15,940 nucleotides of DNA from Gammaproteobacteria bacterium (GTDB lineage: Bacteria; Pseudomonadota; Gammaproteobacteria; Pseudomonadales; Azotimanducaceae_A), in the NCBI GenBank assembly GCA_012960755.1, contig DUAT01000137.1, forward strand, positions 1 through 15,940, read 5' to 3'. The notes under the pieces are model-generated. The model was not told the origin of the DNA and searched no databases. It was given only the letters and a program-made list of their open reading frames with translations. Shown here one piece after another: positions 1-14,374 of the stretch. The translations under genes were made by a program, and so were the position numbers. Every line of letters begins with the position of its first letter. Position 1 is the first letter of the stretch.

Positions 1-8
1 CTCAGTTA

Positions 9-25
9 CAGCACACTGACAGCAC
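9..25 (-). repeat. Arm-type 11-bp-period repeats, left copy (GTGCTG core)
   Basis: Read on the minus strand, the hexamer GTGCTG occurs twice (25-20 and 14-9), exactly 11 bp apart, with 5-bp variable spacers. The same hexamer with the same 11-bp period occurs three times in the opposite orientation at 10009-10036. Short repeats at one-helical-turn spacing near element ends are typical of arm-type binding sites for tyrosine integrases. That role is inferred here; the repeats and spacing are seen directly. Confidence 0.5.
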
Positions 26-301
26 AGTCAATATTTGAAGTTCGATTTTTTGATAGGGGTCCCATCCCCTTCTCCCAGGTGATTCCCCTTTTTACTGGAA
101 CGATGCCTGTCCCTTAAGGCATTGAAATAAAAACACACACAGATAATCCAGCTGATGAGTTATAAGAATTTAAGAGCCGAGGGTATGGTGGAAAGATTGG
201 GATGGCCTGTCTTGCTGAGAGGTAATCAGTAGCGACTCGCGCAAACCTAGCAATCAATACGGCCACCCGATCGTGGCTTGATGAGCCGAACTCCTTGCCG
301 C

Positions 302-317
302 TGTGACCCACCTCACA
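302..317. promoter_or_regulatory. CRP-like palindromic operator (TGTGA-N6-TCACA)
   Basis: The sequence TGTGA, six bases, TCACA is a perfect match to the core CRP consensus and is part of a symmetrical CTGTGA-N6-TCACAG. It lies about 65 bp upstream of the ATG at 384, which has a consensus Shine-Dalgarno sequence, so it could control transcription of that stub. The match is seen directly; CRP or a relative (Vfr, FNR family) binding here is inferred. I could not assign a clear -10 box downstream. Confidence 0.5.
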
Positions 318-383
318 GACAGGAGTATTTTTATCGCTACAGTTTTCTGGTCTCGCAGCCCTAATCCCAACAGGAGGCATAGC

Positions 384-707
384 ATGGCAGCTTTAAACAA
401 AGCCGTATTGATGGCCCTTATCGCCTTGAGCGTTACGCCGGTACCGGTCGTGGCCTATTCAGGAACCCTATCGTACGATTGCGTACGCTGGCTGGCGTGG
501 GTCAGCGCCAGCCCGGATAAATCCCGGCTGTGGTTCCGCTACAATGACCTCAACCGCCGCAGCATTCCTGGTGTAGTCAGGATATATATCCAGACGGTGG
601 CCTCGGCTCTCCAGTACCTGACGGACCCCTTCGTCAATGCGGCCTTCCAGGCTTACTACCGCGGGGAAATGCCGAAAGGGGGCGAAGGAAGACGGGAAAC
701 TGTGTGA
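384..707 (+). pseudogene. Stub of a truncated secreted-protein gene (signal peptide only)
   Basis: The ATG at 384 follows a perfect AGGAGG (372-377) at a 6-base spacing. The first 25 or so residues form a plausible Sec signal peptide: a lysine at position 6, a hydrophobic core (VLMALIALSV) and a small-residue cleavage region ending VVAYSG. After about position 465 the frame runs antisense through the end of the transferase gene (468-2153, minus strand) and reads like chance translation to its stop at 707. I read this as the 5' end of a gene whose remainder was lost by a rearrangement near 465. A CRP-like palindrome lies upstream. Alternatively, the frame is a real 107-residue overlapping gene, which I consider less likely. 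The original product cannot be named. Confidence 0.35.
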
Positions 708-2153
708 GGTTATGCGCGGTGCGTCGATAGCTTCCTGAATATCCATACCAAAATGGAAAATATTAAGAAAGACCTGAAGCATAGATTGCACCTGAGCATC
801 ACCGCCGGGGGCGCCAAAAGGTACGACAGTGCCGTCATCACGCCGAGCAATTGCCGGGTTGGGAGTAAGGCGAGGCCGTCGGCCCGGACCTACGCCGCTG
901 GGGTGGTTCGGGTCGGTCCGTGACTGGGTGCCTCGTGGCGACGGAATAAGACCGAGCCCAGGAACAACGGGGGAGCGCCACATCCCATCTGAAGGCGTCG
1001 CTGAGAATGCATTACCCCATTTGTCGACCGCACAAAGGTACGACGTGTCGGGATCACGTACTGGTAGACCTTCGGTTGCTGGATAGCGAAAAGGTTCGTT
1101 AACACCATGTGGTACCGGCATGTCAGGCATGGCCTTTTTCGGATCAATTTGTTTGAGCCATTCATTGATATTGGCCTCGCTATGTAGTCGCTCAAGAGGA
1201 ACGTCTACAAAATCCGGGTCACCATAGTAATATTCACGGTCTGCAAAGACGCATTTGATGACTTCAATCAGCAGATGGAGATAATCTGCGCTGTTCTGGC
1301 GCAGCCCGTCCAGGCCTGCCTTTTCCATCATGAGCAGAGATTGAATCAGAGTTGGTCCCTGACACCATGGCCCGCAAGTGAAAAGCTCGAAATCGCGCCA
1401 GCGCCCCTGTACGGCCGGTCCGATTCTACTGCGAAAATTAGCGAGATCATCACGCGAGAGATAACCGCCTTCGCTCTGCATGTGCGCAACAATGCGCTCG
1501 GCAATGTCGCCGACATAAAATGCCGCCCGGGCCGCTTCCAGCCCCGCTTCACGTCCGAGATGAGTGGCCGCCTGCTCCTCATCGACCATGAACTGGATTG
1601 TTGCTGCCAAATCGGTCTGTACGAAACGGTCGCCAAGGCGTGGTGGCCGGCCATTGGGGAGAAAGAGTGCCGCACTGGCGGGCCAGCGGTGGTGCTTCGC
1701 ATTATGTTCGAATGCCGACGCAAGAAATTGAAATACCGAAAAGCCATCGCGTGCGAACTCGATCGCCGCCGCCGCCACATCGCCAAATGTCATCGTTCCA
1801 TATTCGCGCAGCGCCGTGATCCAGGCGTCCGGCGCTGCTGGCACAACAGTCCGCAGCACCCCATAGGGCAGCTCGCCACCATACTCACGCATGAAAATAT
1901 CGGCTGGGATCGACAAGGGCCAATGTCCCAAGCCCGCAATCGTGACAACCTTGCCATCTGCCGTCCGGATTATGATTGGCGCGACACCAGCGAAATTTAC
2001 TTCGTCTGGATGTAGGACAGCGAGCGCCATCCCTGCACAACAACCCGCATCGATCGCATTTCCACCTGCGTTCAGGATCGCATTTCCCGCCTCAGCAGCA
2101 AGATAATGACCGGCGGACACAGCATGGCGGTTACCGTAAAGCGTTGGGCGCAT
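468..2153 (-). CDS. Gamma-glutamyltransferase-family hydrolase (Ntn fold)
   Basis: A 561-residue protein of the gamma-glutamyltranspeptidase family, whose proenzymes self-cleave to expose an N-terminal threonine that attacks gamma-glutamyl or related amides. N-terminal family features are the AGHYLAAEAGNAILNAGGNA segment and NFAGVAP. The predicted nucleophile is Thr370 in PDTSYLCAVD, giving a large subunit of about 369 residues and a small one of about 192, normal for the family. GAPGG at 447-451 matches the oxyanion-hole glycine motif. The classical arginine-glutamate motif that binds the alpha-carboxylate in typical enzymes is not seen; AGLGHWP occupies that region (73-79), so the substrate may not be glutathione. 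No signal peptide is visible, suggesting a cytoplasmic enzyme. The frame stays open upstream to 2387, but I chose the ATG at 2153 because homology starts there and a GGGGGA ribosome site precedes it. It is the last gene of the minus-strand cluster with the importer. Confidence 0.88.
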   Translation of the reverse strand: MRPTLYGNRHAVSAGHYLAAEAGNAILNAGGNAIDAGCCAGMALAVLHPDEVNFAGVAPIIIRTADGKVVTIAGLGHWPLSIPADIFMREYGGELPYGVLRTVVPAAPDAWITALREYGTMTFGDVAAAAIEFARDGFSVFQFLASAFEHNAKHHRWPASAALFLPNGRPPRLGDRFVQTDLAATIQFMVDEEQAATHLGREAGLEAARAAFYVGDIAERIVAHMQSEGGYLSRDDLANFRSRIGPAVQGRWRDFELFTCGPWCQGPTLIQSLLMMEKAGLDGLRQNSADYLHLLIEVIKCVFADREYYYGDPDFVDVPLERLHSEANINEWLKQIDPKKAMPDMPVPHGVNEPFRYPATEGLPVRDPDTSYLCAVDKWGNAFSATPSDGMWRSPVVPGLGLIPSPRGTQSRTDPNHPSGVGPGRRPRLTPNPAIARRDDGTVVPFGAPGGDAQVQSMLQVFLNIFHFGMDIQEAIDAPRITSHSFPSSFAPFRHFPAVVSLEGRIDEGVRQVLESRGHRLDIYPDYTRNAAAVEVIVAEPQPGFIRAGADPRQPAYAIVR

Positions 2154-2441
2154 GTGAAATTTTCCCCCGTGGATGAGTAGCGCAAATTTACCGAAAAAGA
2201 CATCCGCTTTTACCCCAGTTCGGAAGTTCTGAGCGTGCGGATTTTTGCCAGCAGTTACAATATCTCCCTGCCGTCCTTGCTTACCATATAGCCATGAAAC
2301 ATTACCGAAATATAAAGTAGCGGCCTGCCAGCACAGAGTCGCTACTGCGAAGCAATCTTGTCGACGGGCAAAACAAGGTGACACCACTTGCGGTAATAAT
2401 CACACCTATGGGCACATTAGCGTTCTTGTCGAATCGAGCAT
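2154..2441. other. Intergenic gap between phosphoesterase and transferase genes
   Basis: This 288-bp gap is long for an operon. The transferase reading frame stays open through most of it (to 2387), but the translated stretch is rich in Cys and Trp and lacks family features, so I treat it as non-coding. The only functional element I see is the purine-rich ribosome site just before 2153. No clear terminator or promoter could be assigned, so independent transcription of the transferase gene is possible. Confidence 0.4.
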
Positions 2442-4472
2442 CTATTCCTGGTTGAGGGTGAGTAACATCGGAGGCGGTGGCTTATCCTCACCAACTATTT
2501 TTTCGCTTAACGTGCGGTAGTTCGTGTCCCACTCCTCTCCGGTCACGAGGTTGACCAACCTTCCTTGTTGGTTAAATACCTTATCGGGGAGGTGATCGTT
2601 GGGCTCAGTTGAAGCTGTTTCATTGTTTGCAACAATCAACAGCACTTGCCCAGTGTCACATTCGGTCACTACAATTCTGTACTGTTTAGTCTCATAGGTG
2701 GATGGATTCGTAAGATGCCGAGGCAATAGGTGATCCAGTGAAGACAAGACTCGACTGCCGTCTTGTGGATTGTAGAGCCTATCTACCAGTCCGTAGCAAT
2801 TGAAATATCCTCGGTCTAGTTGAACAAAATTATCTACAACGACAGAGACGCTGGGATTGGCTCGTGCCAGCAACGCTGCTTCAGCAACTCTAGTTAGCTC
2901 ATGCATCCGTGATGCTTCATCTGTCGGAGCACTAATCGGATCAAACCCAACGCAGGGTACATGCAATATAAACTGATAACCTGTGCCATTAAGAATACCT
3001 CCTACTGCTTCAAAACCGTCGTAGGGACGAACATCCTGCCTGACGCCAAAGACGAATCCGTCTACAGCCTGGCCCAAATCGGGCCGACTCAAGACCCAAT
3101 CAATTTCCTCTACCAGATCAGTGTGCAATCCATGATGAGATGTCCAGCCTTGAACTTCCGGTCGAACTGGATTGAGGTAAATCTGATAGTCCGAGTGTTC
3201 CCGCAGCTTGGCCAGTGGTTCGATTAACCCCTGCCATTCACTGAACAAAGCTACGACTTCTATTGCCGTTATTCCCTTTCCATGAGAAGCCAGTGCTGCA
3301 CGGCGATCTTCGTTGGGCATGCCGAACATAACCACAGTAAACTTGTGTCCCAAACCCATGAGCTGGGCTACCCGCGTCGAAAGCCGTGCGTTCGTTATGT
3401 CTGAAATTGAAATACGGAAATTCCTGATCCCCATTTCCCATAATGCTGACAATGGATAGTCATTTCGCACAAGCTTGCGTTCAAATATCTCAACGCCCCA
3501 AGGGGTCGAGATATCTGCCTCATCACACCATGGCATCCTCAAATCCATAGTTAGCGACCCACCGTGATTGCGCCAAGAGTGAGTTAGGTGGCGATGTTCG
3601 CCATTCGTACGGACCAGATGTGGCACATGCCCATCAGCAAATACGTCTATCCAGAAAAAACCCGTTTTAGCTGTGTCGAAACGTCCCATTTCACGATTCG
3701 GCGTAGTTCGGAAAAATTCAAGGTAATCGTGCCTAACAATACTCGTCGACGGCAAGACAAATTGGTGCATGCCATCGAGGTAATTGTAGAAAAAATTATG
3801 GACGTGCCCTGCGTAGAAACCTTCAACGTTAAACCGTTGCAGCAGGTCAAGCATACGGGACCGCCCAGGCTCATCAACATTGTCATAATGTGCGGGCTCG
3901 TCTTTGGCCGAGAGATAGAGCGGGTAATGTGAAAATACAAACACCCTGTCTCCTGCGCGAATTTGCAATGTCTGTTCGAGCCAGTCCCACTGTTCTTGCT
4001 CTTCTTCGAGGCCCGAATTGATCAGCATAGAATTAACAACGATGAACAGACAATCCTGATGCTGAAAACTGAAACGCTGTCGGCCAAAATGCTGCTCATA
4101 CAGGTCAATGTTGTATCTCGTTATGGTAACTTGCTGGTCTGGTTTAGGTAGTGCTGGAAATATTTTCTCCCCTACATCGTGATTACCGGGTACCAGGTAG
4201 TACGGCATAGAAAAGATTTCAGACGCCTTATGAAAAGCCAGTGCAGTCTCCCCATAATCGGGGGAGTTTGGTGTCGGGTGGGTAATATCGCCTAAGTGAA
4301 CAACAAAAGCAGGCTCCATCGAATTCACACGCTCAATCAGGTCGCAATACACGCTCGCGACATTGTTGCCGGTTTTGTAACTGTCAACAATCACCCGCCC
4401 CTCTTCATCAGTGATGTGTGTGTCTGCAATGATCACGAAACTGAAGAGGGGCCGTCCGGCATCACCGATCAT
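2442..4472 (-). CDS. Two-domain calcineurin-like metallophosphoesterase with TIM-barrel-like C-terminus
   Basis: A 676-residue protein. Residues 10-290 carry the full dimetal phosphoesterase set: D17-x-H19, GD at 61-62, GNHD at 96-99, H182 in SHYP and GHVH at 222-225. This domain should hydrolyse a phosphomonoester or phosphodiester with two bound metals. Residues 320-580 show repeating hydrophobic strands followed by helices (FRISIS, FTVVMFG, IEVVALF, YQIYLNP, DGFVFGV, FILHVPC, VSVVVDNF), which I read as a TIM-barrel-like fold. The last 90 residues look like a beta-sandwich tail. Most bacterial calcineurin-like enzymes are 250-350 residues, so the C-terminal half is an unusual addition. No signal peptide is apparent, so it is probably cytoplasmic. 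The ATG at 4472 follows AGGAG at an 8-base spacing. It lies 180 bp downstream of the ATPase gene and is probably co-regulated with the importer. The substrate is unknown. Confidence 0.85.
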   Translation of the reverse strand: MIGDAGRPLFSFVIIADTHITDEEGRVIVDSYKTGNNVASVYCDLIERVNSMEPAFVVHLGDITHPTPNSPDYGETALAFHKASEIFSMPYYLVPGNHDVGEKIFPALPKPDQQVTITRYNIDLYEQHFGRQRFSFQHQDCLFIVVNSMLINSGLEEEQEQWDWLEQTLQIRAGDRVFVFSHYPLYLSAKDEPAHYDNVDEPGRSRMLDLLQRFNVEGFYAGHVHNFFYNYLDGMHQFVLPSTSIVRHDYLEFFRTTPNREMGRFDTAKTGFFWIDVFADGHVPHLVRTNGEHRHLTHSWRNHGGSLTMDLRMPWCDEADISTPWGVEIFERKLVRNDYPLSALWEMGIRNFRISISDITNARLSTRVAQLMGLGHKFTVVMFGMPNEDRRAALASHGKGITAIEVVALFSEWQGLIEPLAKLREHSDYQIYLNPVRPEVQGWTSHHGLHTDLVEEIDWVLSRPDLGQAVDGFVFGVRQDVRPYDGFEAVGGILNGTGYQFILHVPCVGFDPISAPTDEASRMHELTRVAEAALLARANPSVSVVVDNFVQLDRGYFNCYGLVDRLYNPQDGSRVLSSLDHLLPRHLTNPSTYETKQYRIVVTECDTGQVLLIVANNETASTEPNDHLPDKVFNQQGRLVNLVTGEEWDTNYRTLSEKIVGEDKPPPPMLLTLNQE

Positions 4473-4652
4473 TCATATATCTCCTAAAGTTGATCTAGTG
4501 CGCTCGACAAACGCTGACGAATCGTTGTGTGCATACGCGGCCGCGGTGTCTTGGCACAAAATGATTGGTGGTGTTGTATTGCCCATTATTTGTATTCAAA
4601 TTATTGACTATTACCAAGCAACCATAAGTTAAACCAAATTGAGGACTCCACA
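4473..4652. other. Intergenic gap between ATPase and phosphoesterase genes
   Basis: This 180-bp AT-rich gap contains the AGGAG ribosome site for the phosphoesterase (4481-4485, minus strand) and a GCGGCCGC palindrome. I see no convincing terminator or small gene. A separate promoter for the two hydrolase genes could lie here, but I cannot define one. Confidence 0.3.
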
Positions 4653-5753
4653 CTACGAAGTCAACAACAGGCCACTCTCTACCGGCCACACCACCCACAC
4701 CTCCTCGACACTGTCTATCCTCAAGCGTGTGGAGCTTTGGCGTTCATTCAGGTTCGCCACGGTCAGTTGACGTGACAACCCTTCAATGTCAAGGAAGTAA
4801 TAGCTGCGATCGCCGGCATAGGACTCGGCTATCAGTTTTCCGCGGAGGCCGTTGTAGTCGCCATCGGGCACCTCGCTCGCGATCCGCAACTTCTCCGGCC
4901 TGATTGCTAGCACTGCTTTCTCGCCCGGGCGGGCCTGGGACTGCCCCACCGGCACCCTTAATCGGCCCGTAGAGCCCGTGTCGATCACAACGCTCTCCCC
5001 GACCGATTCCACCGTTCCTGGTAGCAGATTGATGTTTCCGATGAATTCGGCAACCGCGGTGCAAGAAGGAGCCTCATAGAGTGCACTCGGAGTGTCAACC
5101 TGGACGATCTTCCCACTCATCATCACGGCGATGCGATCGGCCATGGTCAGGGCCTCTTCCTGATCGTGCGTCACGAACACGAACGTGATACCCACTGTTC
5201 TTTGTAACTGACGAAGCTCGACCTGCATCTCCTCGCGAAGCTTCTTGTCCAACGCACCAAGCGGTTCATCGAGTAGCAGCACCTTCGGTTGACATACCAG
5301 GGCTCGCGCCAGAGCCACTCTTTGGCGCTCCCCACCCGACAGTTGATGCGCAGCGCGTAGCCCATAACCTGGCAGCTGGATCAAGTCGAGCATTTCATCC
5401 ACCGTATCGTGGATCTGATCTTTAGTCATCCCTTTATTCAACAGGCCATAAGCGATATTTTCGCTGACGTTGAGATGAGGAAAGATGGCGTAATTCTGAA
5501 ACACCATGTTCGTGGGGCGCTGATTCGGTAGAATTTCCGATACGGGTTCGCGGTCGAGGAAGATCTCACCGGCGTTGGGAATCTCGAACCCGCCAAGCAG
5601 GCGAAGCAGTGTCGTCTTGCCGGAGCCGGATGGACCTAGAATGGCGAAGAACTCGTTCCGCGCGATGTCCAACGTCACGTTATCAACGGCCCTCACCGGG
5701 CCGAACAACTTGGATACTCCAGAAATCGAGATCATCGCCTCAAGCGGGGGCAT
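4653..5753 (-). CDS. PotA-like ABC transporter ATP-binding protein
   Basis: Cytoplasmic ATPase of a polyamine/spermidine-type importer. Counting from the upstream ATG at 5765 (370 residues), it has Walker A GPSGSGKT (44-51), Q-loop Gln90 in FQNYAIFPHL, signature LSGGERQ (142-148), Walker B VLLLDEP with D166/E167, D-loop GALD and switch His200 in THD. The C-terminal 130 residues form a TOBE-type regulatory domain (IRPEKLRI region), usual for PotA, FbpC and UgpC relatives. I chose the ATG at 5753 (366 residues) because GGAG lies 6 bases upstream; the ATG at 5765 has a weaker site. It follows the PotC-like permease stop by 17 bases and is clearly in the same operon. PotA-type sequence does not fix the substrate: opines, putrescine, spermidine and other cations are all possible. 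Confidence 0.93.
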   Translation of the reverse strand: MPPLEAMISISGVSKLFGPVRAVDNVTLDIARNEFFAILGPSGSGKTTLLRLLGGFEIPNAGEIFLDREPVSEILPNQRPTNMVFQNYAIFPHLNVSENIAYGLLNKGMTKDQIHDTVDEMLDLIQLPGYGLRAAHQLSGGERQRVALARALVCQPKVLLLDEPLGALDKKLREEMQVELRQLQRTVGITFVFVTHDQEEALTMADRIAVMMSGKIVQVDTPSALYEAPSCTAVAEFIGNINLLPGTVESVGESVVIDTGSTGRLRVPVGQSQARPGEKAVLAIRPEKLRIASEVPDGDYNGLRGKLIAESYAGDRSYYFLDIEGLSRQLTVANLNERQSSTRLRIDSVEEVWVVWPVESGLLLTS

Positions 5754-5770
5754 TACTTTCTCCATTGACG

Positions 5771-6562
5771 TTAGGCCTTATCTTTCCCACGGCGTAGCCA
5801 TTCTGCGATCGAGACCAGAACGGCTGATACGACGAGAATGCAACTACCCAGCGCCAACACGCCCGGCAGAAATTGGGGAAAACGAAGAAGACTGTACATG
5901 TAGACTGGTAGAGTGGGCTGGTTGCCGCTTAGGAAAAACGCCTTTAGGAACTCATCGAATGAGACCAAAAAGCAGAGTAACAGGCTGGCCAGCACGCCGG
6001 GCATCGCCAGGGGCAACGTCACCCGCCGCAACGTCTGCCAGGTGCTCATCCCAAGGTCATAGGATGCCTCCTCCAGGTTGCGGTCGAAACCTTCGAGCCT
6101 GGCGATGAGGACCAGCATTGAAAACGGAATACTTAACAGCACGTGTGCCGATCCAACGGTCCACAGAGTTAATTCGATGTCGAGGAATTGCCTGAAGAAA
6201 CTGAGCAGGGACGCACCTAGAATAATGGACGGAATAATCAGAGGCAGCATGATGAACCCAAAAATCACGCCTCTTCCGCGCATTCCGTACCGTGTCATCG
6301 CCTTAGCTGCTAGAAATCCGAGAATGGTGCTGATGATGGCCGAGAACACGGCGATTTTCACACTTGCCCACAGCGCCTTCATCATTAAAGTATCTTCAAT
6401 CATCAACACATACCATTTGGTTGTGAATGATTGCAGGGGAAAGTTCATATAAATGCTGTCGTTGAATGAAAACAGCGGTAGAAGCAGCACGGGAGCGTAG
6501 AGAACAAAAATGTAGAACCCCAGGATAAGGGGCACCAGGCCGGGTGTGCGCAATCGCTCCAT
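5771..6562 (-). CDS. PotC-like ABC transporter permease
   Basis: Inner-membrane permease of 263 residues with about six hydrophobic segments and a conserved EAA coupling loop (LEEASYDLGMSTWQTLRRV followed by TLPLAMPG, about residues 163-190), which docks onto the ATPase. Family resemblance is to PotC/YdcV-type permeases. The frame stays open upstream to 6616, but I chose the ATG at 6562. It overlaps the stop of the preceding permease as TGATG, a usual arrangement for translational coupling, and AAAGGCG precedes it. It forms a heterodimer with the PotB-like permease encoded immediately upstream. Confidence 0.92.
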   Translation of the reverse strand: MERLRTPGLVPLILGFYIFVLYAPVLLLPLFSFNDSIYMNFPLQSFTTKWYVLMIEDTLMMKALWASVKIAVFSAIISTILGFLAAKAMTRYGMRGRGVIFGFIMLPLIIPSIILGASLLSFFRQFLDIELTLWTVGSAHVLLSIPFSMLVLIARLEGFDRNLEEASYDLGMSTWQTLRRVTLPLAMPGVLASLLLCFLVSFDEFLKAFFLSGNQPTLPVYMYSLLRFPQFLPGVLALGSCILVVSAVLVSIAEWLRRGKDKA

Positions 6563-7512
6563 CAGGTTACGCCTTTTAATCGCTTGTGCCCGCCGGCAAG
6601 GAGTACAAACGCGCACACGATCAATGTTATCGACACCATCATTGCGATGGAGACTGCGGCAGCCAAAGGTTCGTTAGACATTTCAGTGAACAAAGACACG
6701 ATGATGTTGCCCAGCATCGTACCGGAGACACCACCGACCAGGGCCGGCGTCACGTAATCGCCCACGTTACGAATAAACAAAAGTAGAGCAGCCCCAAGAA
6801 CGCCGGGCATGGAGAGTGGCAGAGTGATGCGCCAAAAGCGACGCATAAATCCATCACCCAGATCGGACGCAGCCTCCAGTAACGAGCGGTTGATTTTCTC
6901 CAGTGAGAGATAGATCGGTAGAATAGCGAAAGCTGCCCAGGCATGGGTCAGCGTCACAATGACGGCAGAACGGTTGTGCAGGAAAATATCGAGCGGTTCG
7001 TCGATGAACCCGAGTGTCATGAGCATCCAATTTAGCACCCCGTTATATTGAAGGATGACCTTCCACGAGAACACACGGAGGAGATAGCTGGCCCAGAACG
7101 GAATGGTGATGACGATCAGCCAAAATATCTTGTGCTTGTGAATGTGGAAGGCCATGACATAGGCGATGGGATAGCAAAACAGGATCACGCTGACCGTTAT
7201 CATTAGTGACATCCACAGTGAGCGCAGCAGCAGGGCTCTGTATATCTCGCCTTCAGGCGTGAGCAGAAGCGAGTAATTGGCGAGCGTGTATTGCACGGCC
7301 TCGCCCGGCGCGGTGTCCACCCAGAAACTCTGCACGACCAGCGTCGCAAGCGCGACCATCAGCATGAAAAACATGAACAGCAGAGTCGGCAACAACAAGA
7401 AATAGCCGCGAAGATCTTCGTTTAGGTACCACAGCCGCCAAAGCCGACGTCTCAGGTTCAGCGGAGTACGATCCACCGGCGTTTGAATCAGGGTTTCGTT
7501 GGAATCTCCCAT
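6562..7512 (-). CDS. PotB-like ABC transporter permease
   Basis: Inner-membrane permease of 316 residues. An N-terminal cytoplasmic stretch of about 35 residues rich in Arg is followed by about six membrane segments and an EAA loop (EAASDLGDGFMRRFWRIT then LPLSMPG, about residues 213-238). This matches PotB/PotH-type subunits of polyamine-class importers. Its stop overlaps the start of the PotC-like permease. It lies about 100 bp downstream of the binding-protein gene, with a terminator-like hairpin between them. The ribosome site (TAGG close to the ATG) is weak, which may further lower permease output relative to the binding protein. Confidence 0.92.
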   Translation of the reverse strand: MGDSNETLIQTPVDRTPLNLRRRLWRLWYLNEDLRGYFLLLPTLLFMFFMLMVALATLVVQSFWVDTAPGEAVQYTLANYSLLLTPEGEIYRALLLRSLWMSLMITVSVILFCYPIAYVMAFHIHKHKIFWLIVITIPFWASYLLRVFSWKVILQYNGVLNWMLMTLGFIDEPLDIFLHNRSAVIVTLTHAWAAFAILPIYLSLEKINRSLLEAASDLGDGFMRRFWRITLPLSMPGVLGAALLLFIRNVGDYVTPALVGGVSGTMLGNIIVSLFTEMSNEPLAAAVSIAMMVSITLIVCAFVLLAGGHKRLKGVT

Positions 7513-7538
7513 CTGCCTAAAAGACGCTACCTTGTGGG

Positions 7539-7579
7539 AAAAAGGCGCGCCCGGGGCATTGTTTCAGCCCCAGGCGCGC
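7539..7579 (-). terminator. Terminator-like stem-loop between binding-protein and permease genes
   Basis: Bases 7545-7557 pair with 7567-7579 to form a 13-bp GC-rich stem with one C-A mismatch and a 9-base loop. On the minus strand it is followed at once by five T residues (7543-7539). It begins about 30 bases after the binding-protein stop. Such intercistronic hairpins in ABC importer operons partially terminate transcription or protect the upstream mRNA, giving more binding protein than membrane subunits. The structure is seen directly; the effect is inferred. Confidence 0.75.
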
Positions 7580-7610
7580 GAGGATCTTACTCTATGAGAT
7601 CGTGCGAAGA

Positions 7611-8726
7611 TCAGAAGCCAGACTTCACGCGATTGTAAAGATCGACCATCTTATCCTTGGTTTCCTTCGGGACGGCCCTGGACCACAATCCCTTTTCAAC
7701 CGCCTCGTTAACATCCCCGATACCGATACTCGCGATCGCTTCCGGGCTTGCGACATCGAAGGACTTTTGGTTCGCGGCTCCATATCCCAGTTCTTCAATG
7801 ATGGCGGCACCTGATTCAGCCGTAAGAATAGCGTCAAGAAAATCGTACTTTTCCTGCTCCGGTGCCGAGCCGCCCTTGATCATCATGTAGCCATCGACCC
7901 AGGTCGGCGCCCCTTCTTTTGGCATCATGAAGCCAACCGGCACACCTTGCTTCTTCAGCGTCGCATAAGTGCTATTCCAGCCGCTCATAACAGCAATCTC
8001 GCCACTGGCCAGTGCCTGCTGCGCATCGGCAGATGACGTCCAGTAGAAACGAACCAATTCGCGCTGTTTCCGCAGCATGTCACCGGTCATTTCGATTTCA
8101 TCATCGGTCATATCGTAGGCGTCTTTGGCACCCCCATACAGGGCAGCAGGGAGCATCGCCCCCATAAATGCATCACGAATTGCGATCTTTCCCTTGAGTC
8201 TCTCATCCCAGAGGATGCCCCAAGTGGCGTTCTCAGCGTAGTCAGCAGGCACCAGATCGGTGCGGTATACCACGGCCGTTTGACCCCATGCCCAAGGCAC
8301 GAAATGCCTGTTGCCATCAGTCTCAAGCGCCTTTAAGCGATCAAACAACATGTGCCAGTTTGAAAGGCGTGAAGTATCAATTTTCTCAACCAGACCTTCG
8401 TCCATCCAGAATGGCGCATGACTCCATGAGGGCACGGCCAAGTCCGGTTGGTAGCCGCTGCGAACTTTCGCTCGAGCCTTGCCGTTTGACGAGAGCAGGG
8501 AAATCTCGGGTGACTTGCCATACTTATCTGTAAAGCTTTTGTGCAGTTTCGGATTATCGTAGCCAGCCCAAGTGAAAACCTGGAGCACCGGGTCCGCCGC
8601 CAATGCCGACCGGCCAAGCCCGAACCCGGAGGCGGAAAGTATGCCAATCGATGCCAGTATTTTGTTGACCTCACGACGGGTTAACGCCCCAGAACTCAAC
8701 TTAGTTTTAAAGTCTTTGGAATTCAT
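7611..8726 (-). CDS. PotD-like periplasmic substrate-binding protein, Tat-like signal
   Basis: A 371-residue extracellular solute-binding protein of the spermidine/putrescine (PotD/PotF) class. The N-terminus has LTRREVNKIL (about 15-24), close to a twin-arginine signal, then a hydrophobic stretch and SALAAD, giving a likely cleavage near residue 43. The mature protein starts with LQVFTWAGYDNPKL, typical of this class where strand 1 precedes ligand contacts, and contains LAVPSWSHAPFW and GWNSTYATL segments. The frame is open to 8810, but the ATG at 8726 has GGAGAA 6 bases upstream and gives a clean signal sequence. It is the first gene of the minus-strand operon, divergent from the XRE-type regulator. 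The ligand cannot be decided from sequence by eye; polyamines, opines or other amines fit the family. Confidence 0.92.
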   Translation of the reverse strand: MNSKDFKTKLSSGALTRREVNKILASIGILSASGFGLGRSALAADPVLQVFTWAGYDNPKLHKSFTDKYGKSPEISLLSSNGKARAKVRSGYQPDLAVPSWSHAPFWMDEGLVEKIDTSRLSNWHMLFDRLKALETDGNRHFVPWAWGQTAVVYRTDLVPADYAENATWGILWDERLKGKIAIRDAFMGAMLPAALYGGAKDAYDMTDDEIEMTGDMLRKQRELVRFYWTSSADAQQALASGEIAVMSGWNSTYATLKKQGVPVGFMMPKEGAPTWVDGYMMIKGGSAPEQEKYDFLDAILTAESGAAIIEELGYGAANQKSFDVASPEAIASIGIGDVNEAVEKGLWSRAVPKETKDKMVDLYNRVKSGF

Positions 8727-8974
8727 AGTGTTTTCTCCCGAATTTATAAAGAATTTTTGACTTGTGCTCAGTGAGGTTAGCACTACTAGTAAAATCGAAA
8801 TAGTGTTCACATTTGAGCAGAATTGTGCATCTTAGAGCAGTAAATGCGTCATACTGATCAATTTATGTGGCAGCTTGAAAATTTTATCTATTTCGATAAG
8901 CAGAATTTTCTCTAACTTTGCTGCGCCAAGCTAACTAGCGAAATTTTGAAACTTTGTGAGGAAAAAACTGGACA
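8727..8974. promoter_or_regulatory. Divergent control region of importer operon and XRE regulator
   Basis: This 248-bp AT-rich region lies between two divergent starts and should hold both promoters. An interrupted inverted repeat spans 8877-8910: GAAAATT pairs with AATTTTC, with an inner TTATC/GATAA pair around TATTTC. The motif AGCAGAATT occurs at 8816-8824 and again at 8900-8908, and GAGCAG recurs at 8815 and 8835, 20 bp (about two helical turns) apart. These are good candidates for operators of the adjacent regulator. I could not assign confident -35/-10 boxes for either direction. Confidence 0.5.
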
Positions 8975-9817
8975 ATGAAACACGAGCTCCCAATTCAATT
9001 GCCAGTTGACAATTTTGTTCGAAATCTACGGACTCTATGTACCGCGCACCGCTCGGTTTCGGAGATTTGCCGACTGACTGGAATCAATCGCCAACAGTTT
9101 GGCCGATACCTAAATGGCAGCTATCGGCCATCTCGTTTCAATATGCGGCGTATATGTGAATTTTTTGGTGTTCATGAATCTGATCTCATGTTACCTAGCT
9201 CCGATTTCGAAACATTTTTCAATTCGCACTTCATGGAAATCAGACAAGGCGGTGGTGCAGGTTGGCTCGGAAGGACCTTAGAGAATATAGTGACAATGAA
9301 TGATCCCAGTCTCCGCAAGTACATAGGCTGGTATCATTCTTACTCATACTCTTTTGGATGGCCCGATTGGGTCATTCGGTCGTTGGTAAGTGTTTACGAA
9401 CATCAAGGACGGCTACTTAGCAAGACGATAGAACATCTAAGAGACCCATTACATGGTGCGCGTTTCGTGTACAAATACAATGGTATAGTAACCACGAGTG
9501 CAAATCGAATATTCATCGCTGAATATGACGCATTACAACATGATGACTTTTCGCTAAAGATTCTATTTCACACCCACCGAAGTCACGTTAACTTTCTATC
9601 CGGCCTGGTGACAGGCACGTCTAGTCGGCCGCATCGCCAACCAGCCTCCGCGCGCATTGTCTTTCAGTATCTGGGAGGAACAATCGACACAAGAGCGGAG
9701 TTAAGGAAATGCGGGATGTTCGTCCCAACCCATTCCAACATCAATCCGAAAATATTGTCACTTATTGACAATACGTTCGCCGAGGGTGAAACGGTCCTCA
9801 ATGCCGTAGCCCACTGA
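8975..9817 (+). CDS. XRE-type helix-turn-helix transcriptional regulator
   Basis: A 280-residue protein with an N-terminal XRE/Cro-like DNA-binding domain at about residues 13-75; the helix-turn-helix is SVSEICRLTGINRQQFGRYL followed by NGSYRPS. The remaining 200 residues are a mixed alpha/beta domain that I do not recognise, presumably a ligand-sensing or oligomerisation module. It is divergent from the binding-protein gene, so it most likely controls the importer-hydrolase operon and possibly itself. The ATG at 8975 follows GTGAGG at a rather long spacing, so initiation may be weak. Whether it represses or activates cannot be told from the sequence. Confidence 0.82.
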   Translation: MKHELPIQLPVDNFVRNLRTLCTAHRSVSEICRLTGINRQQFGRYLNGSYRPSRFNMRRICEFFGVHESDLMLPSSDFETFFNSHFMEIRQGGGAGWLGRTLENIVTMNDPSLRKYIGWYHSYSYSFGWPDWVIRSLVSVYEHQGRLLSKTIEHLRDPLHGARFVYKYNGIVTTSANRIFIAEYDALQHDDFSLKILFHTHRSHVNFLSGLVTGTSSRPHRQPASARIVFQYLGGTIDTRAELRKCGMFVPTHSNINPKILSLIDNTFAEGETVLNAVAH

Positions 9818-9841
9818 GGAAAGGTCTCGAGAGAGATTGCC

Positions 9842-10000
9842 GTGAGATTAGATCCCGCTCGCGAGGCTTGGGCGAGAAGAAGATACATACTGTCAACAAA
9901 AATTACAGCAACTGGATCGAGTCTCAAGCGGACACAGGAGGCCTTTTTTGATCCCTGCGAGGTGTTGTCAAAATCAGGTTTAGATCGATTTGAAGGTTAA
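9842..10000 (+). CDS. Possible 52-residue small ORF, unknown
   Basis: A GTG-initiated frame follows GAGAG at a 6-base spacing and encodes a basic, helix-prone peptide (VRLDPAREAWARRRYIL near its start). It ends 8 bases before the GTGCTG repeats. I do not recognise the product. It may be a small gene, a fragment of an element-borne gene or chance. Confidence 0.18.
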   Translation: MRLDPAREAWARRRYILSTKITATGSSLKRTQEAFFDPCEVLSKSGLDRFEG

Positions 10001-10008
10001 ATGTTGGT

Positions 10009-10036
10009 GTGCTGAAACTGTGCTGAAACTGTGCTG
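10009..10036 (+). repeat. Arm-type 11-bp-period repeats, right copy (GTGCTG x3)
   Basis: GTGCTG starts at 10009, 10020 and 10031; the two spacers are both AAACT, giving a perfect 11-bp tandem period. The same core lies inverted at 9-25. The repeats sit about 90 bp from the anticodon arm of the tRNA-like copy, a reasonable distance between integrase arm and core sites. The integrase-binding role is inferred. Confidence 0.6.
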
Positions 10037-10104
10037 ATTTCTGACCACTCAGGGCTAATCAGGGAACTTTGCGTGGAGTTGATGCCTGATAATAAAAGGG
10101 TTTT

Positions 10105-10176
10105 TGGGCTGTTAGTTGGTAGAGCACTGCCTTCGGGAGGCAGGGGCCGGAGGTTCGAATCCTCTCACCCCGACCA
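10105..10176 (+). tRNA. Degenerate tRNA-Pro(CGG) copy, likely attachment-site scar
   Basis: The 3' three-quarters are canonical: anticodon stem CTGCC/GGCAG (10127-10131, 10139-10143), loop TTCGGGA with anticodon CGG at 10134-10136, a five-base variable loop, T-arm GGAGG-TTCGAAT-CCTCT and the 3' acceptor strand CACCCCG followed by A and encoded CCA (10174-10176). The 5' part is faulty. The best acceptor strand, TGGGCTG (10105-10111), has one C-C mismatch and a T-G end pair, and the 5' strand of the D stem (expected GCTC) is missing, so the total is 72 rather than about 77 bases. It is probably not a working tRNA but the tRNA-derived attachment site left by an integrative element; a tandem recombinase remnant lies 58 bp further on. 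Confidence 0.6.
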
Positions 10177-10233: not shown

Positions 10234-10655
10234 TCAACGGGCACTGTGCCCAGAATGTGCCCGAAACTTCTCTAACTTATGTACTGCATCGTGTAAATCT
10301 GTTGGGTCACTGTGCATGTACCGATCTGTCATGGTGACACTGCTGTGACCTAACAAGTCTCGAATAGTTAGGGCTTCTACACCTGACATCTGCCCCAACC
10401 AGGACGCACAAGTATGGCGAAGGGTGTGAAAAGTAACACCCGTCAGCCCTGCCCTTTTACAGGCCGACTGCATGGCTGTCTTCACGATCACCCACTTCCG
10501 TGTTTCTACACTTCTCGATGCGAAAGAACACCCAAGGCGTGGAGGGACAGTGCTCAGACCGCACACTTGCTCTTCGAATCAATACAGACCGAACAGAAGG
10601 ATTGATAGGAACCTTGCGAGGCTTGGCTTCGCACCTATTCAGTCGACTTGATATT
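10234..10655 (-). pseudogene. Tyrosine recombinase (phage-type integrase) remnant
   Basis: The C-terminal catalytic part of a tyrosine recombinase is readable in the frame ending at 10234. HTLRHTCASWL supplies the H-x-x-R box, LLGHSS the second histidine region, and MTDRYMH contains the nucleophile tyrosine. Further upstream, in another frame, KPRKVPINPSV and STPWVFF match the segment normally preceding it. The two parts are joined only by a frameshift near 10495-10510. The N-terminal half, including the first catalytic arginine box, is missing where the LysR gene ends (10679). The gene points towards the tRNA-Pro copy, the usual orientation next to an attachment site. It cannot make an active enzyme as it stands. 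Confidence 0.75.
10239..10262 (+). repeat. GTGCCC repeats at the recombinase 3' end
   Basis: GTGCCC starts at 10246 and 10257, 11 bp apart, and an inverted copy GGGCAC lies at 10239-10244. The 11-bp period matches that of the GTGCTG repeats, but the core differs. The repeats overlap the last codons of the recombinase remnant. They could be arm sites of the second, decayed element; chance within coding sequence is possible. Confidence 0.3.
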
Positions 10656-10678: not shown

Positions 10679-11596
10679 TCAGTTTGAATTAATCAATTCG
10701 GCGCATTCAACAAAACGATGAACAGCGCGGTTGGTTTCTTGCACACGGTATCCAAGATAGAACAGGTCTTCGAAGGTATACGTTTCGGTACAAATCGCTC
10801 GCATTAGACCATTGTCCACCCAGTGCTGAGCAAAATGATCCGGTAGATAACCGATGTATTTACCAGAGAGTATCAACAGCGCAGTGCTTTCCATATGCGC
10901 TACTGCGGTACGCTGAGGAAAGTCAATTGTGGTCGGGGGTTTGGATTCAAGCAGGTATGAGCGACCGGCGTATTGAGAGTTGATAATCTCTTGGCCAAGA
11001 ATACGATCATCCTGTAGATGGAACAGGGTATTATCCTTGCCGCAATAGAGAAGCTGGCGTTCACTAAACATGTAGTTGTAGGTCACGCTCACGTGCTTAC
11101 GCAGCATTGGCGTCAAAACCACATGGTAACGCTCCTCCAACAGTCCCTGATGTAATAGCTGGGGTGAGCTGATATCAATATAGAGCGTTACTTCAGGAGC
11201 AGAGTTCGAGAACGAGGATATTACGCGGTCCATATGAATAGACGAATTCGTTGCAACAGCATCGACCACGCCAAAATGTAGGTCGCCAACCAATTGTCCT
11301 CGTGTACTACCTACGATTCCTCTAAAGTTCTCTATAGAAGTAAACAACCGCAGTATCGCGTCGTATATGACTTGCCCCTGTTCCGAGATATGAAACCCTT
11401 TCCTGCCACGCTCGCACAGTCTTACACCCAGGCGATTTTCCAGATTACGAATGTGAATGCTGATCGTTGAGGCTGAAATTCTGAGTTCATCCTGAGCAGC
11501 CGCGAAGCCACGATGTCGAATCACAGCCGCGAACACTCTCAACAACCTGAGGTCGATGTCAGATAAATCTGCGATTGGAGGTAGCTTTTTGGACAT
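10679..11596 (-). CDS. LysR-family transcriptional regulator
   Basis: A 305-residue protein with an N-terminal winged helix-turn-helix at about residues 13-75: FAAVIRHRGFAAAQDEL, then SASTISIHIRNLENRLGVRL, then GFHISEQGQVIYDAI. It continues into a linker helix and an effector-binding domain of about 200 residues (type 2 periplasmic-binding fold). Length is normal for the family. It is divergent from the second importer operon and probably activates it in response to the transported compound or a metabolite. The start at 11596 abuts a perfect palindrome at 11600-11613, suggesting autoregulation. No strong Shine-Dalgarno sequence is visible. Its 3' end runs directly into the recombinase remnant, sharing the same frame beyond the stop. 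Confidence 0.92.
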   Translation of the reverse strand: MSKKLPPIADLSDIDLRLLRVFAAVIRHRGFAAAQDELRISASTISIHIRNLENRLGVRLCERGRKGFHISEQGQVIYDAILRLFTSIENFRGIVGSTRGQLVGDLHFGVVDAVATNSSIHMDRVISSFSNSAPEVTLYIDISSPQLLHQGLLEERYHVVLTPMLRKHVSVTYNYMFSERQLLYCGKDNTLFHLQDDRILGQEIINSQYAGRSYLLESKPPTTIDFPQRTAVAHMESTALLILSGKYIGYLPDHFAQHWVDNGLMRAICTETYTFEDLFYLGYRVQETNRAVHRFVECAELINSN

Positions 11597-11599
11597 ACA

Positions 11600-11613
11600 T
11601 TGATATCTATCAA
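11600..11613. promoter_or_regulatory. Palindromic LysR-box candidate
   Basis: TTGATA-TC-TATCAA is a perfect 14-bp inverted repeat fitting the loose T-N11-A LysR box. It lies 3 bases upstream of the LysR start codon, where a bound regulator would block its own transcription. Confidence 0.5.
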
Positions 11614-11703
11614 ACTAAAGGTGGGTACACTAGTATTTATAAATGTTTCTGTTTTGTCTAGGATTTTTTTATTCGACCGATTCACCCCGAACCAGTGGGC
11701 TGT

Positions 11704-11732
11704 TTGAAGGGCATCTCGGCCGAATATATACA
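11704..11732 (+). promoter_or_regulatory. Putative sigma-70 promoter of the second importer operon
   Basis: TTGAAG (11704-11709) and TATACA (11727-11732) are separated by exactly 17 bases, matching the -35/-10 layout with four of six and five of six consensus bases. Transcription would start near 11739, leaving a leader of about 30 bases containing the GGAGG ribosome site. Confidence 0.5.
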
Positions 11733-11768
11733 AATACTCACTAATCACTGAAGTGGAGGATTAAAGAA

Positions 11769-12740
11769 ATGAAACGATTCTGTTTACAGTTGTTTCTCTC
11801 CTTTGTATTACTGTGCTCATTCAACATAGCTCAAGCCGAGACACTCGTATTAGGTCATTCAACATGGGTGGGTTATGGACCTTTTTATATCGCCCGTGAC
11901 AAAGGTTATTTCGAAGAAGAAGGCGTAGAGGTCAAACTCCAGGTGATGGAAAACACGTCACTGAAGATGGGGGCATTGATGGCTGGCAAAATCGACGCGG
12001 TTGCTTCAACTGCTGATGAGTTCCCGCTCTATATGAAGCCTGGTAGTTTGGTAAAGTACATTTTCGCAGTCGATAACTCTAAAGGTGGCGACGGAGTGGT
12101 TGCTAGGAAAGAGTTTGAGACCATTGCCGATTTAAAAGGCAAACAGGTGGCATTTGAAGAGGGTTCGGTTTCACAATTCTTCATCAACGCCTTGCTGAGG
12201 GAGGCCGGACTGACCCAAGACGACATCAACATGGTGAATATGACCGCAACTGATGCTGGCGTAGCGTTTACAGCGAATCGCGTCGATGCGGCTGTTACCT
12301 GGGAACCGCATTTATCTCAAGGTGCTGCCACCAGCCACGGTAAACTTTTGGTCACAAGTGCAGAAAAACCAGGGCTGATTGTTGACGTTGTCGCTGTAAC
12401 CCAGGAGACATGGGATAGTCGTCGTGCCGAACTTGAGGCCTTATGGCGAGGATGGAATCGCGCTCTTGCCTTTCTGCAGCAAAACCCTGATGAGGCTTAT
12501 GCGATTATGGCTAAAGGTGTGGGTGGATGGCTGGAGGATCCTAAAGAATTTGCTGCCACCGTTACCGGTATTGAATACCTTGATGAGGCGAAGAATCGAG
12601 AACTGTTTGGTCAGCCGAATTCGCCTGGGCAGCTATATCAAACCTTGAGTTATGCGCTCGATATCTGGCGAGATTTTGGGCGATTACAAGTGGATGTCAC
12701 AGGCGCCGATATTATCGAGCATTCTATCGTAGGAAATTAG
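11769..12740 (+). CDS. SsuA/TauA/NMT1-type ABC substrate-binding protein
   Basis: A 323-residue periplasmic binding protein. Residues 1-23 form a Sec signal (MKR, a hydrophobic core, then AQA before Glu24). The mature part has the family opening GHSTWVGYGPFYIARDKGYF, followed by a lobe with KMGALMAGKIDA and IADLKGKQVAFEEGS. This matches SsuA/TauA/ThiY-type proteins, which bind sulfonates, nitrate, pyrimidine precursors or other small anions. The ATG follows GGAGG at a 9-base spacing, the best ribosome site in this operon. First gene of a four-gene plus-strand operon. The ligand is not decidable by eye. Confidence 0.92.
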   Translation: MKRFCLQLFLSFVLLCSFNIAQAETLVLGHSTWVGYGPFYIARDKGYFEEEGVEVKLQVMENTSLKMGALMAGKIDAVASTADEFPLYMKPGSLVKYIFAVDNSKGGDGVVARKEFETIADLKGKQVAFEEGSVSQFFINALLREAGLTQDDINMVNMTATDAGVAFTANRVDAAVTWEPHLSQGAATSHGKLLVTSAEKPGLIVDVVAVTQETWDSRRAELEALWRGWNRALAFLQQNPDEAYAIMAKGVGGWLEDPKEFAATVTGIEYLDEAKNRELFGQPNSPGQLYQTLSYALDIWRDFGRLQVDVTGADIIEHSIVGN

Positions 12741-12752
12741 AACTATTTAGCC

Positions 12753-13553
12753 GTGGGTAGGCTCACACGAACACTTCTCACTCCTAAGAGAAGCCTTCCC
12801 GCTGTCCTAGAGATCAGCGTAAGCATCGCTTTTGGTGCTGCGCTGATCCTGGGATGGTGTGTGTTTACTTACGGCGGAATAGTAAGTGAGAACTTCTTGC
12901 CTCCGCCCCATATGGTGGTTATGGCATTTGTCAAAAAAATGGCGGATGGCTCATTACCCACACATATTGGCGTATCGTTGAGTGAGATTTATCTGGGTTT
13001 TGTTCTCGCCTCTGCCGCCGCAATCCCAATCGGTATTTTCATGGGTAGTTTTCGCATTGTTGCAGCAGCCATAGAGCCAATCATCAACTTCGTTCGTTAT
13101 CTGCCTGTTACCTCGATGATCCCATTACTAATTCTATGGATTGGGATCGGCTTGGAAGAAAAGGTGGCTGTCATTTTTATCGGAACCTTTTTCCAGCAGG
13201 TAGTGATGGTAGCCGACGTTTCAGCTCGTGTGCCGAGGGATCTATTGGATGCTTCCTACACACTGGGTGCTTCGTGGGGCCAAGTGGTAACCCGGGTATT
13301 ACTTCCGGCGACCCTGCCAGGAATTATGGATACCCTCCGGGTGACAATGGGCTGGGCCTGGACATTCCTGGTAGTGGCAGAGCTGGTCGCGGCTGATGCT
13401 GGACTGGGCTACATGATCCTGCAAGCAATGCGCGGCTTTCACCCGGATGTAATTTTTGTCGGCATTCTTGTGATCGGCATTCTCGGCTTACTTACCGATA
13501 GGTTCTTCAAATGGGTTCGAGATTACTATCTATCTTGGGCAAGTACGGACTGA
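12753..13553 (+). CDS. TauC/SsuC-type ABC transporter permease
   Basis: A 266-residue inner-membrane permease with about six hydrophobic segments. The motifs PPPHMVVMAF and FVRYLPVTSMIPLLILWIG are characteristic of nitrate/sulfonate/taurine permeases, and the coupling loop is LLDASYTLGASWGQVVTRVL then LPATLPGI (about 164-191). GTG start at 12753, only 12 bases after the binding-protein stop, with a poor ribosome site, so translation is probably coupled to the upstream gene. A homodimer is usual for this class. Confidence 0.92.
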   Translation: MGRLTRTLLTPKRSLPAVLEISVSIAFGAALILGWCVFTYGGIVSENFLPPPHMVVMAFVKKMADGSLPTHIGVSLSEIYLGFVLASAAAIPIGIFMGSFRIVAAAIEPIINFVRYLPVTSMIPLLILWIGIGLEEKVAVIFIGTFFQQVVMVADVSARVPRDLLDASYTLGASWGQVVTRVLLPATLPGIMDTLRVTMGWAWTFLVVAELVAADAGLGYMILQAMRGFHPDVIFVGILVIGILGLLTDRFFKWVRDYYLSWASTD

Positions 13554-13566
13554 GTGGCAATAGACT

Positions 13567-14346
13567 GTGGCCTCGTTATCAATTAACAACGTGACGCTGG
13601 AATTCAGTGACCGCAAACAGCCAACGGTTACTGCTCTGGACGGTCTATCACTCGATATTCCTGACAGACAATTTGAAGTAATCGTGGGCCCATCCGGTTG
13701 TGGTAAGTCAAGCTTACTGCATCTTTTAGCTGGACTTAGTGAACCAACATCCGGGGAATGCCGAATTGACGGGAAGTTGATTGAGGAACCCGGGGCAGAT
13801 CGCGGAATGGTGTTCCAGTCATATACTTTATTCCCGTGGCTAACAGTACGTAAGAATATAGAATTCGGCCCACGGTTGAGAGGAATGACCGTATCTGATT
13901 GCGCCAACACGGTTGATAGATTCCTTCGCTATATGCACCTCGAAGATTTTGGCGACTACTACCCCAACCAACTTTCAGGGGGAATGCGGCAACGCGTTGC
14001 CCTGGCTCGAACTTTCGCCAACGACCCAAAGGTGTTGTTAATGGACGAGCCGTTTGGGGCCTTGGATAGTCAAACGCGAACCGTAATGCAGGAATTATTG
14101 CTAGATATATGGAACAAAGACCAGAAAACTGTCTTATTTGTCACACATGATATCGATGAAGCTTTACTTCTCGGGAACAAGGTGCATGTGATGTCAGCAA
14201 GGCCGGGGCAAATAATTGAAACAATAGACGTTGAGGTTAAAGGTCCGAGAAAAGCTGAATTGATCACAAGCGACTATTTCGTCGAACATAAACGAAGAAT
14301 CATGGGTTTACTGCATGACGAAGTCATCAAGGCGATAAGATCATGA
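13567..14346 (+). CDS. TauB/SsuB-type ABC transporter ATP-binding protein
   Basis: A 259-residue cytoplasmic ATPase: Walker A GPSGCGKS (41-48), Gln84 in [13 protein letters not shown], signature LSGGMRQ (136-142), Walker B VLLMDEP with D160/E161, GALD, and switch His194 in THD followed by IDEAL. The FQ-x-x-x-LFPWLTV pattern and short length without a TOBE domain are typical of nitrate/sulfonate/taurine importers. It starts with GTG at 13567, 13 bases after the permease stop. Confidence 0.93.
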
Positions 14347-14374
14347 ACTCCGTAAATAATATGGTTTCGAAGCT

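Follow-up and report, generated by a model that had tools for sequence, protein, structure and literature searches.

A Probable Cargo Island with Phased Arm-Type Repeats and a tRNA-Pro Scar in a Gammaproteobacterium

Introduction

How did a compact set of importer, hydrolase and regulator genes, among which no recombinase is recognised, come to be enclosed by inverted arrays of short repeats and to close in a copy of a tRNA gene? The question is raised by positions 1-10176 of contig DUAT01000137.1 (GenBank assembly GCA_012960755.1), from a probably marine gammaproteobacterium of the family Azotimanducaceae_A; the whole stretch analysed, 15,940 nucleotides, is called here the window. In our reading, to which we give a probability of about 0.7, 1-10176 is an integrated cargo island which has attachment ends and no recombinase of its own, resembles a cis-mobilizable element (CIME), and would be moved in trans by tyrosine integrases that target tRNA genes. 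Its ends recall attP of the lambda type, in which short arm sites stand on both sides of the core; here too, putative arm sites flank a core. The window was compared with 33 genomes of the same family and 76 other genomes of the order (109 in all), and with a separate class-wide sample of 369 genomes; genomes, contigs and loci are designated by G, C and L numbers. The nearest genome, G001, has 21% of the window's sampled words in common.

Ends of the Island

Three exact GTGCTG-N5-GTGCTG pairs, that is, with a period of 11 bp, were found in the window, all of them confined to the ends of the island: 9-25 on the reverse strand and 10009-10025 and 10020-10036 on the forward strand. They belong to the left arm-type repeats, two inverted TGTGCTG units at 9-26 (reverse strand), and to the right arm-type repeats, three TGTGCTG units at 10008-10036 (forward strand), both arrays keeping the 11-bp period. 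In 1000 runs of an order-1 Markov simulation of the window the mean number of exact pairs was 0.003, at least one pair was seen in 3 runs and three pairs in none, by which a chance origin of the repeats was ruled out; the helically spaced GTGCTG repeats, inverted at both ends, that the first-pass annotation had described were thus confirmed. A weaker control, in which two mismatches were allowed, gave 4 pairs, against a mean of 1.32 in shuffled sequences, and 10 of 200 shuffles reached 4.

In the 33 family genomes the bare exact pair was counted 74 times and its reversed control 17 times. When the spacer was considered, 18 of 25 distinct pairs whose spacer starts with AA lay at most 300 bp from a tRNA-Pro, tRNA-Val or tRNA-Arg gene or copy, against 1 of 27 pairs with other spacers among the loci examined; this sample was enriched, since many of the loci had been selected by their ends; the two right pairs of the window are part of it, overlapping pairs of a triple count twice, and three left-end-type pairs, none with a tRNA match in this comparison, are left aside. 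Scattering of the repeats over the genome had been proposed as a sign against an island; it was seen in part, for the bare pair, and not for the island-type pair. The arm triple as it stands in the window was found in 4 of 61 genomes, two of which (G044 and G057) are outside the family. A triple GTGCTG pattern with the 11-bp period was also present in 58 viral stretches, which shows that such arrays are in themselves common; in a rough scan, no tRNA T-loop was flagged up to 200 bp away from these viral triples.

At the right end, ARAGORN detected a tRNA-Pro(CGG) at 10105-10176, whose Rfam score was barely over the threshold (32.1 against 29 bits). When it was aligned with an intact tRNA-Pro(CGG) from related genomes, the match was restricted to tRNA positions ~17 to 77 (10117-10176, forward strand), the acceptor strand on the 5' side and the greater part of the D-arm having been exchanged for other sequence. 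It is therefore a 3' copy, an att-type scar, in agreement with the first-pass annotation. In 16 other copies chosen for alignment the tRNA 5' end was also missing without exception, although the copy in G017 is N up to position 32. Between the arms and the core there is a TGCGTGGAGT-TGATGCC motif (10070-10086, forward strand) which is recurrent in right ends, many of which share the arms, then this motif, then the tRNA copy. Inside the copy, CTGCCTTC (10127-10134, forward strand) is the putative crossover segment, common to tRNA-Pro and tRNA-Val.

A composite right-end pattern made of the arms, the TGCGTGGAGT motif and the tRNA copy was found in 7 of the 33 family genomes, a count that is not independent, since the pattern was derived from loci already seen in the family. 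Its absence outside the family is the informative part: 0 of the 76 other genomes of the order had it (reversed control, 0 of 109), and the single match among the 369 genomes of the class-wide sample was G001. Neither this pattern nor a 21-base right-end word had any exact match in IMG/VR. Some right ends are decayed, namely, those of G001 C197, G002 C375, G029 C25 (L206:5168), and G032 C113 (L095:7313).

Other arrangements were seen at tRNA-Arg. A scar at L099:799-845 joins a Pro-like anticodon loop to a tRNA-Arg 3' half. The anticodon region of tRNA-Arg(CCG), CCTCCGGAGG, is palindromic, and in G013 and G011 (L106:4248-4409 and L107:4535-4696) an inverted right-end-like sequence is located directly at the 3' end of this gene. 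Inverted integration through the palindromic region is a possible reading of these two sites.

The conserved left end of the island covers 1-174, and similar sequence was found at 6 places in 5 of the 33 family genomes, two of them (G012 C83 and G013 C50) similar only from about base 50 onward. Both ends are of types that recur in related genomes, which supports the island reading. Contig C416 of G001 is 98% identical to window 1-4700 and extends 116 bp further left. Its first 25 bases are a tRNA-Val(CAC) 3' end that includes CCA and is separated by 99 bp from the left arms, and the last 23 of them also terminate tRNA-Val(CAC) genes in G002 (two) and G005; since the contig begins there, a gene and a copy are not distinguishable. 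A tRNA 3' end is thus found in G001 about 90 bp to the left of the base that matches window position 1, consistent with the expected left junction just upstream of the window. The identity of its neighbours was not as expected: in place of tRNA-Pro(CGG) there is tRNA-Val(CAC), and no integrase was seen in the 116 bp that precede the left end, the remnant in the window being located beyond the right scar. The homologous left end of G017, however, does adjoin a tRNA-Pro copy, ~300 bp from an intact tRNA-Pro with a run of N between them. Over about 100 bp this G017 left end aligns with the right end of the window in inverted orientation, with a score of 43 against at most 22 in 200 shuffles. On contig C255 of G001 the same left end (86%) is followed by other cargo (arginase-family, ornithine cyclodeaminase, and D-serine-dehydratase-type genes, and more), so in this genome one left end stands in front of two different cargoes (C416 and C255). 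A 16-base word of the left end was also found in nine viral stretches of IMG/VR (L404-L412).

Related Islands and Occupied Sites

Each of 14 tRNA-Pro(CGG) loci matches others on its upstream side (G026 by short matches only), and the downstream sides vary. In G003 and G020 the intact tRNA-Pro is directly followed by TTCTTGATCTG and onward. Contig C11 of G012 contains a right end and a tRNA-Pro copy and then the flank seen right after the intact tRNA-Pro in G003 and G020, with the alignment beginning in the anticodon loop. This sister island measures 1.6 kb and carries one arylsulfotransferase-like gene; the other G012 contig ends inside tRNA-Pro, so the join on that side is presumptive. The comparison with empty sites that had been suggested for the window could be made for this sister island, occupied in G012 and missing in G003 and G020, and gave no such pair for 1-10176 itself.

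On the 84.9-kb contig C19 of G032, a Val copy, a window-type left end, a right end and a Pro copy enclose an island of 2.9 kb with MarC-like and dienelactone-hydrolase-like genes. The next 5.2 kb, up to the next Pro copy and right end, hold short-chain dehydrogenase/reductase (SDR), metallo-beta-lactamase-fold, RraA-like, PhyH-like and UPF0114 genes, together with an open reading frame (ORF) of 92 amino acids with no Pfam match. On contig C2 of G029 two stretches lie between Pro, Val and Val copies, and their genes are of the major facilitator superfamily (MFS), M20 peptidase, class II aldolase, L-PSP, DUF1330 and ureidoglycolate-lyase types, plus one ORF with no match. Two integrase queries at E 1e-4 detected no integrase in the G032 C19 and G029 C2 stretches, and no integrase domain was found in the ORFs of at least 90 amino acids that were retained for them.

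Similar arms were found in front of different tRNA copies. The right arms of G032 C19 and G032 C113 are 87% alike (109 of 126), whereas their 3' halves, Pro in the former and Val in the latter, are 57% alike. Between the window and G001 C197 the arm side is 81% alike and the part after CTGCCTTC 47%, a figure lowered because the C197 copy is itself partly decayed. CTGCCTTC is common to tRNA-Pro(CGG) and tRNA-Val(CAC), some genes having CTGTCTTC, and tRNA-Arg(CCG) has CTGCCCTC. Tandem stretches mix Pro, Val and Arg copies, and a crossover at CTGCCTTC would account for mixed scars of this kind.

A piece of 368 bp (window 448-815) is 94% identical to L212:540-907 of G029, which belongs to another genus, where it is located beside a right end at tRNA-Arg. 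Together with the 98% identity of window 1-4700 in G001, this piece suggests recent exchange, the overall likeness of the host genomes being left aside. The claim that importer, hydrolases and regulator travel as one unit did not find backing in G001, which covers only 1-4700 before its contig ends. A search of phages gave 39 records, and the 20 matches listed involve the tRNA part only; a search of plasmids gave 10 records, of which nine match the tRNA part and the tenth a fragment of the ABC ATPase gene.

Cargo and Integrases

By family assignment, the cargo begins on the reverse strand with a gamma-glutamyltranspeptidase-family protein at 468-2387 (PF01019, E 1.8e-98, below the NCBIfam equivalog cut-off) and a calcineurin-like metallophosphoesterase at 2442-4472 (PF00149). 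The importer genes, also on the reverse strand, encode a PotA-like ABC importer ATPase (4653-5765; TIGR01187, 361.1 bits against a cut-off of 355.6), a PotC-like permease (5771-6616) and a PotB-like permease (6562-7512), both with PF00528 and with PotC and PotB, respectively, as best NCBIfam match below the cut-off, and a PotD-like solute-binding protein (7611-8810; PF13416; best NCBIfam matches PotD and PotF, below the cut-off). An XRE-type helix-turn-helix (HTH) regulator (8975-9817, HTH_31) is on the forward strand. Judging from the family names, this combination of a PotABCD-like importer, a gamma-glutamyltranspeptidase-type enzyme, a phosphoesterase and a regulator probably serves the uptake and breakdown of nitrogenous compounds. 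Nine ORFs of 1-10176 were scanned against Pfam, and among them there was no integrase, integration or transfer domain, no relaxase or conjugation gene, and no packaging, capsid or replication gene.

Beyond the scar, at 10237-10627 on the reverse strand, there is, unmentioned in the first-pass annotation, a C-terminal tyrosine-integrase remnant (PF00589, residues ~238-371) in two frames, 89% and 92% identical to the integrase of G027, with a GTGCCC pair of 11-bp period at its 3' end (10246-10262, forward strand). The full-length G027 integrase (371 amino acids) has its C-terminus against an intact tRNA-Pro, and a relative of it in G029 C40 (78%) stands against tRNA-Val(CAC). Considering that the remnant is akin to integrases that stand against tRNAs, a further, broken element seems to start after the scar, and the remnant probably belongs to it. 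The region 10679-15421, in which no match to any of the 33 family genomes exceeds 188 bp, holds genes for a LysR regulator, an SsuA-type substrate-binding protein, a permease, an ATPase and an alcohol dehydrogenase, which may be the cargo of that element.

Integrase matches were obtained in 17 of the 33 family genomes, 31 in total (L294-L323). Of these, ten are reduced to the C-terminus, starting at residue 283 or further on, and the sole N-terminal piece has its other half alongside, an imbalance to which profile conservation could contribute and in which at least one C-terminal piece is truncated by the end of its contig. The same GTGCTGAAA-type pair is carried at the 3' end by integrase genes or fragments that lie next to tRNA-Pro or tRNA-Arg in G029, G025 and G011. 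A GTGCTG-type pair overlaps the integrase 3' end in four cases (L295, L298, L306, and L318) among the 30 integrase loci and the window, and two of the four are C-terminal fragments. The relatives in IMG/VR had 36-46% identity (80 of 129 retained). A second integrase type was observed in G032 (L199:1876-2862), in the same orientation as tRNA-Pro and downstream of it, with a similar match at the same place in G002.

Discussion

In the mechanism that we propose, the two ends would represent the two arms of one attachment site, with phased GTGCTG arm sites ~90 bp before the tRNA-derived core at the right end and, judging from G001, opposite-pointing arm sites ~100 bp after a tRNA 3' end at the left. 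An integrase-bearing element at a tRNA gene would supply the tyrosine integrase in trans, which is predicted to bind the arms. The target tRNA would exchange strands at its anticodon stem-loop, with the incoming element bringing a replacement 3' half and leaving the displaced one as a scar at its right end. Given that tRNA-Pro(CGG) and tRNA-Val(CAC) have an identical exchange segment, CTGCCTTC, from which that of tRNA-Arg(CCG) differs little, islands could use several of these genes and accumulate in tandem. Excision, transfer, the supply of integrase in trans, the integrase partner, and the joint travel of 1-10176 are inferred.

It is possible to compare the island with the classes of element described so far. 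As in a CIME, it has flanks of the attL/attR type, the right one in the window and the left tRNA end from G001 only, both ends being on one contig in the 2.9-kb island of G032; and its scanned ORFs hold no integration or transfer genes. Like a tycheposon it is cargo bounded by tRNA sequence (the right-hand scar lies in the window, and the tRNA end on the left is known from G001), but its own tyrosine recombinase is lacking among the scanned ORFs, the remnant being outside the scar. The lack of relaxase or conjugation genes in the same ORFs separates it from integrative and conjugative elements (ICEs) and integrative and mobilizable elements (IMEs), and their content, with the absence of exact right-end matches in IMG/VR, separates it from phage satellites such as phage-inducible chromosomal islands (PICIs) and virion-encapsidated integrative mobile elements (VEIMEs).

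At ssrA of Dehalococcoides, 15 islands with no integration module were suggested to be cis-mobilizable and to have moved with their neighbours by accretion (PMC3146451). Our islands resemble those islands and CIMEs in being tandem and bounded by scars of an RNA gene, but differ in that phased arms of tyrosine-integrase type are present, where Dehalococcoides uses ssrA and a serine recombinase, and in that several tRNA genes are involved, with similar arms on different tRNAs (PMC3146451). They also resemble the tycheposons and additive islands of Methylophilaceae, with tRNA-bounded cargo in small-genome aquatic bacteria and tRNA 3' end repeats in an additive island; the tycheposon has a tyrosine recombinase, whereas here none was recognised and the scars, which come from several tRNAs, start in the anticodon arm region and reach the 3' end (PMC10872708). 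Anticodon-centred crossovers, displaced tDNA fragments and tandem arrays are already known from Islander (PMC4383910), features that our islands appear to share. Islander matches each tDNA to fragments of that same tDNA and tests for an integrase gene (PMC4383910), and the present islands would tend to fail on both. A family-wide end signature and similar arms on different tRNAs were not met in the literature examined, which is not to say that tRNA switching has never been published; for Arenicellales and "genomic island" no paper was found.

Another explanation is that the ends are fossils of a larger autonomous element (prophage, ICE or IME) which has lost its integrase and transfer genes by deletion, nothing being mobile now. 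The integrase remnant broken in two frames beside the scar, the ten family integrase matches reduced to the C-terminus and the decay of some right ends are in line with it; we nevertheless regard it as unlikely, given that coherent cargo without a recognised integrase is found repeatedly in small islands (the 2.9 and 5.2 kb of G032, the 1.6 kb of G012, and two in G029 C2) and that the 94% piece in G029 and the 98% match in G001 suggest recent exchange. It could also be thought that the two ends come from different elements, the left at tRNA-Val and the right at tRNA-Pro, and that 1-10176 is a fused remainder. The left end at tRNA-Val in G001 with a tRNA-Pro scar in the window, and the mixture of copies in tandem stretches, would agree with such an origin; but the same Val/Pro pairing is found on one contig around the 2.9-kb island of G032, in G017 a Pro copy adjoins the left end, and switching within the common core would explain the mixed scars with no fusion, for which reasons fusion seems improbable to us. 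That the segment is an ordinary chromosomal operon near an unrelated tRNA pseudogene, with chance repeats, is hardly credible: GTGCTG pairs do occur elsewhere in the family and triples in viral stretches, but the simulations, the absence of the end signature outside the family in the order and class samples, and the occupied and unoccupied sites of the sister island all speak against it.

Several observations weigh against the integrated cargo island that we favour. The comparison genomes are mostly drafts whose contigs often stop at repeats, and G001, from which alone the left junction of the window is known, is 87% complete with 6% contamination. The left end of G001 compared with the right end of the window gave a score of 28, below the shuffle maximum of 31 and not significant. 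G018 does not have several hundred bases of the flank shared by G003 and G020, so these sites lack this island and are perhaps not virgin. In the 1.6-kb island of G012 the arms at both ends have the same direction, unlike the window, and the integrase-side arms beside tRNA-Pro also point the same way relative to right ends. This orientation, which is not uniform, implies two left-end types, so that the integrases seen are only candidate partners for the window type; the pair at the integrase end is oriented opposite to the left arm of the window, which makes any pairing of integrase and island tentative. The 5.2-kb stretch of G032 yielded no left arm, no arms were detected by motif search at the scars between the G029 C2 stretches, and no excised form of the island was seen.

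Conclusions

The cargo island reading has a practical side, since with a defined end signature such islands become countable in draft genomes, and it suggests that island finders which require an integrase would overlook them. To our knowledge, the movement of small transporter and catabolic gene sets among uncultured marine bacteria is poorly known. We put forward, only tentatively, that an integron-like cargo system operates on the tRNA genes of one marine gammaproteobacterial family: the cassettes would be defined by a conserved end pair, resident integrases at tRNA-Pro(CGG), tRNA-Val(CAC) and tRNA-Arg(CCG) would capture and exchange them via the common anticodon-stem sequence CTGCCTTC, and cassettes would pass between loci. 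The cassette of an integron is based on attC and IntI, while the ends described here are tRNA-derived and have arm sites. The cargo island model predicts a trans-acting integrase with relaxed tRNA choice.

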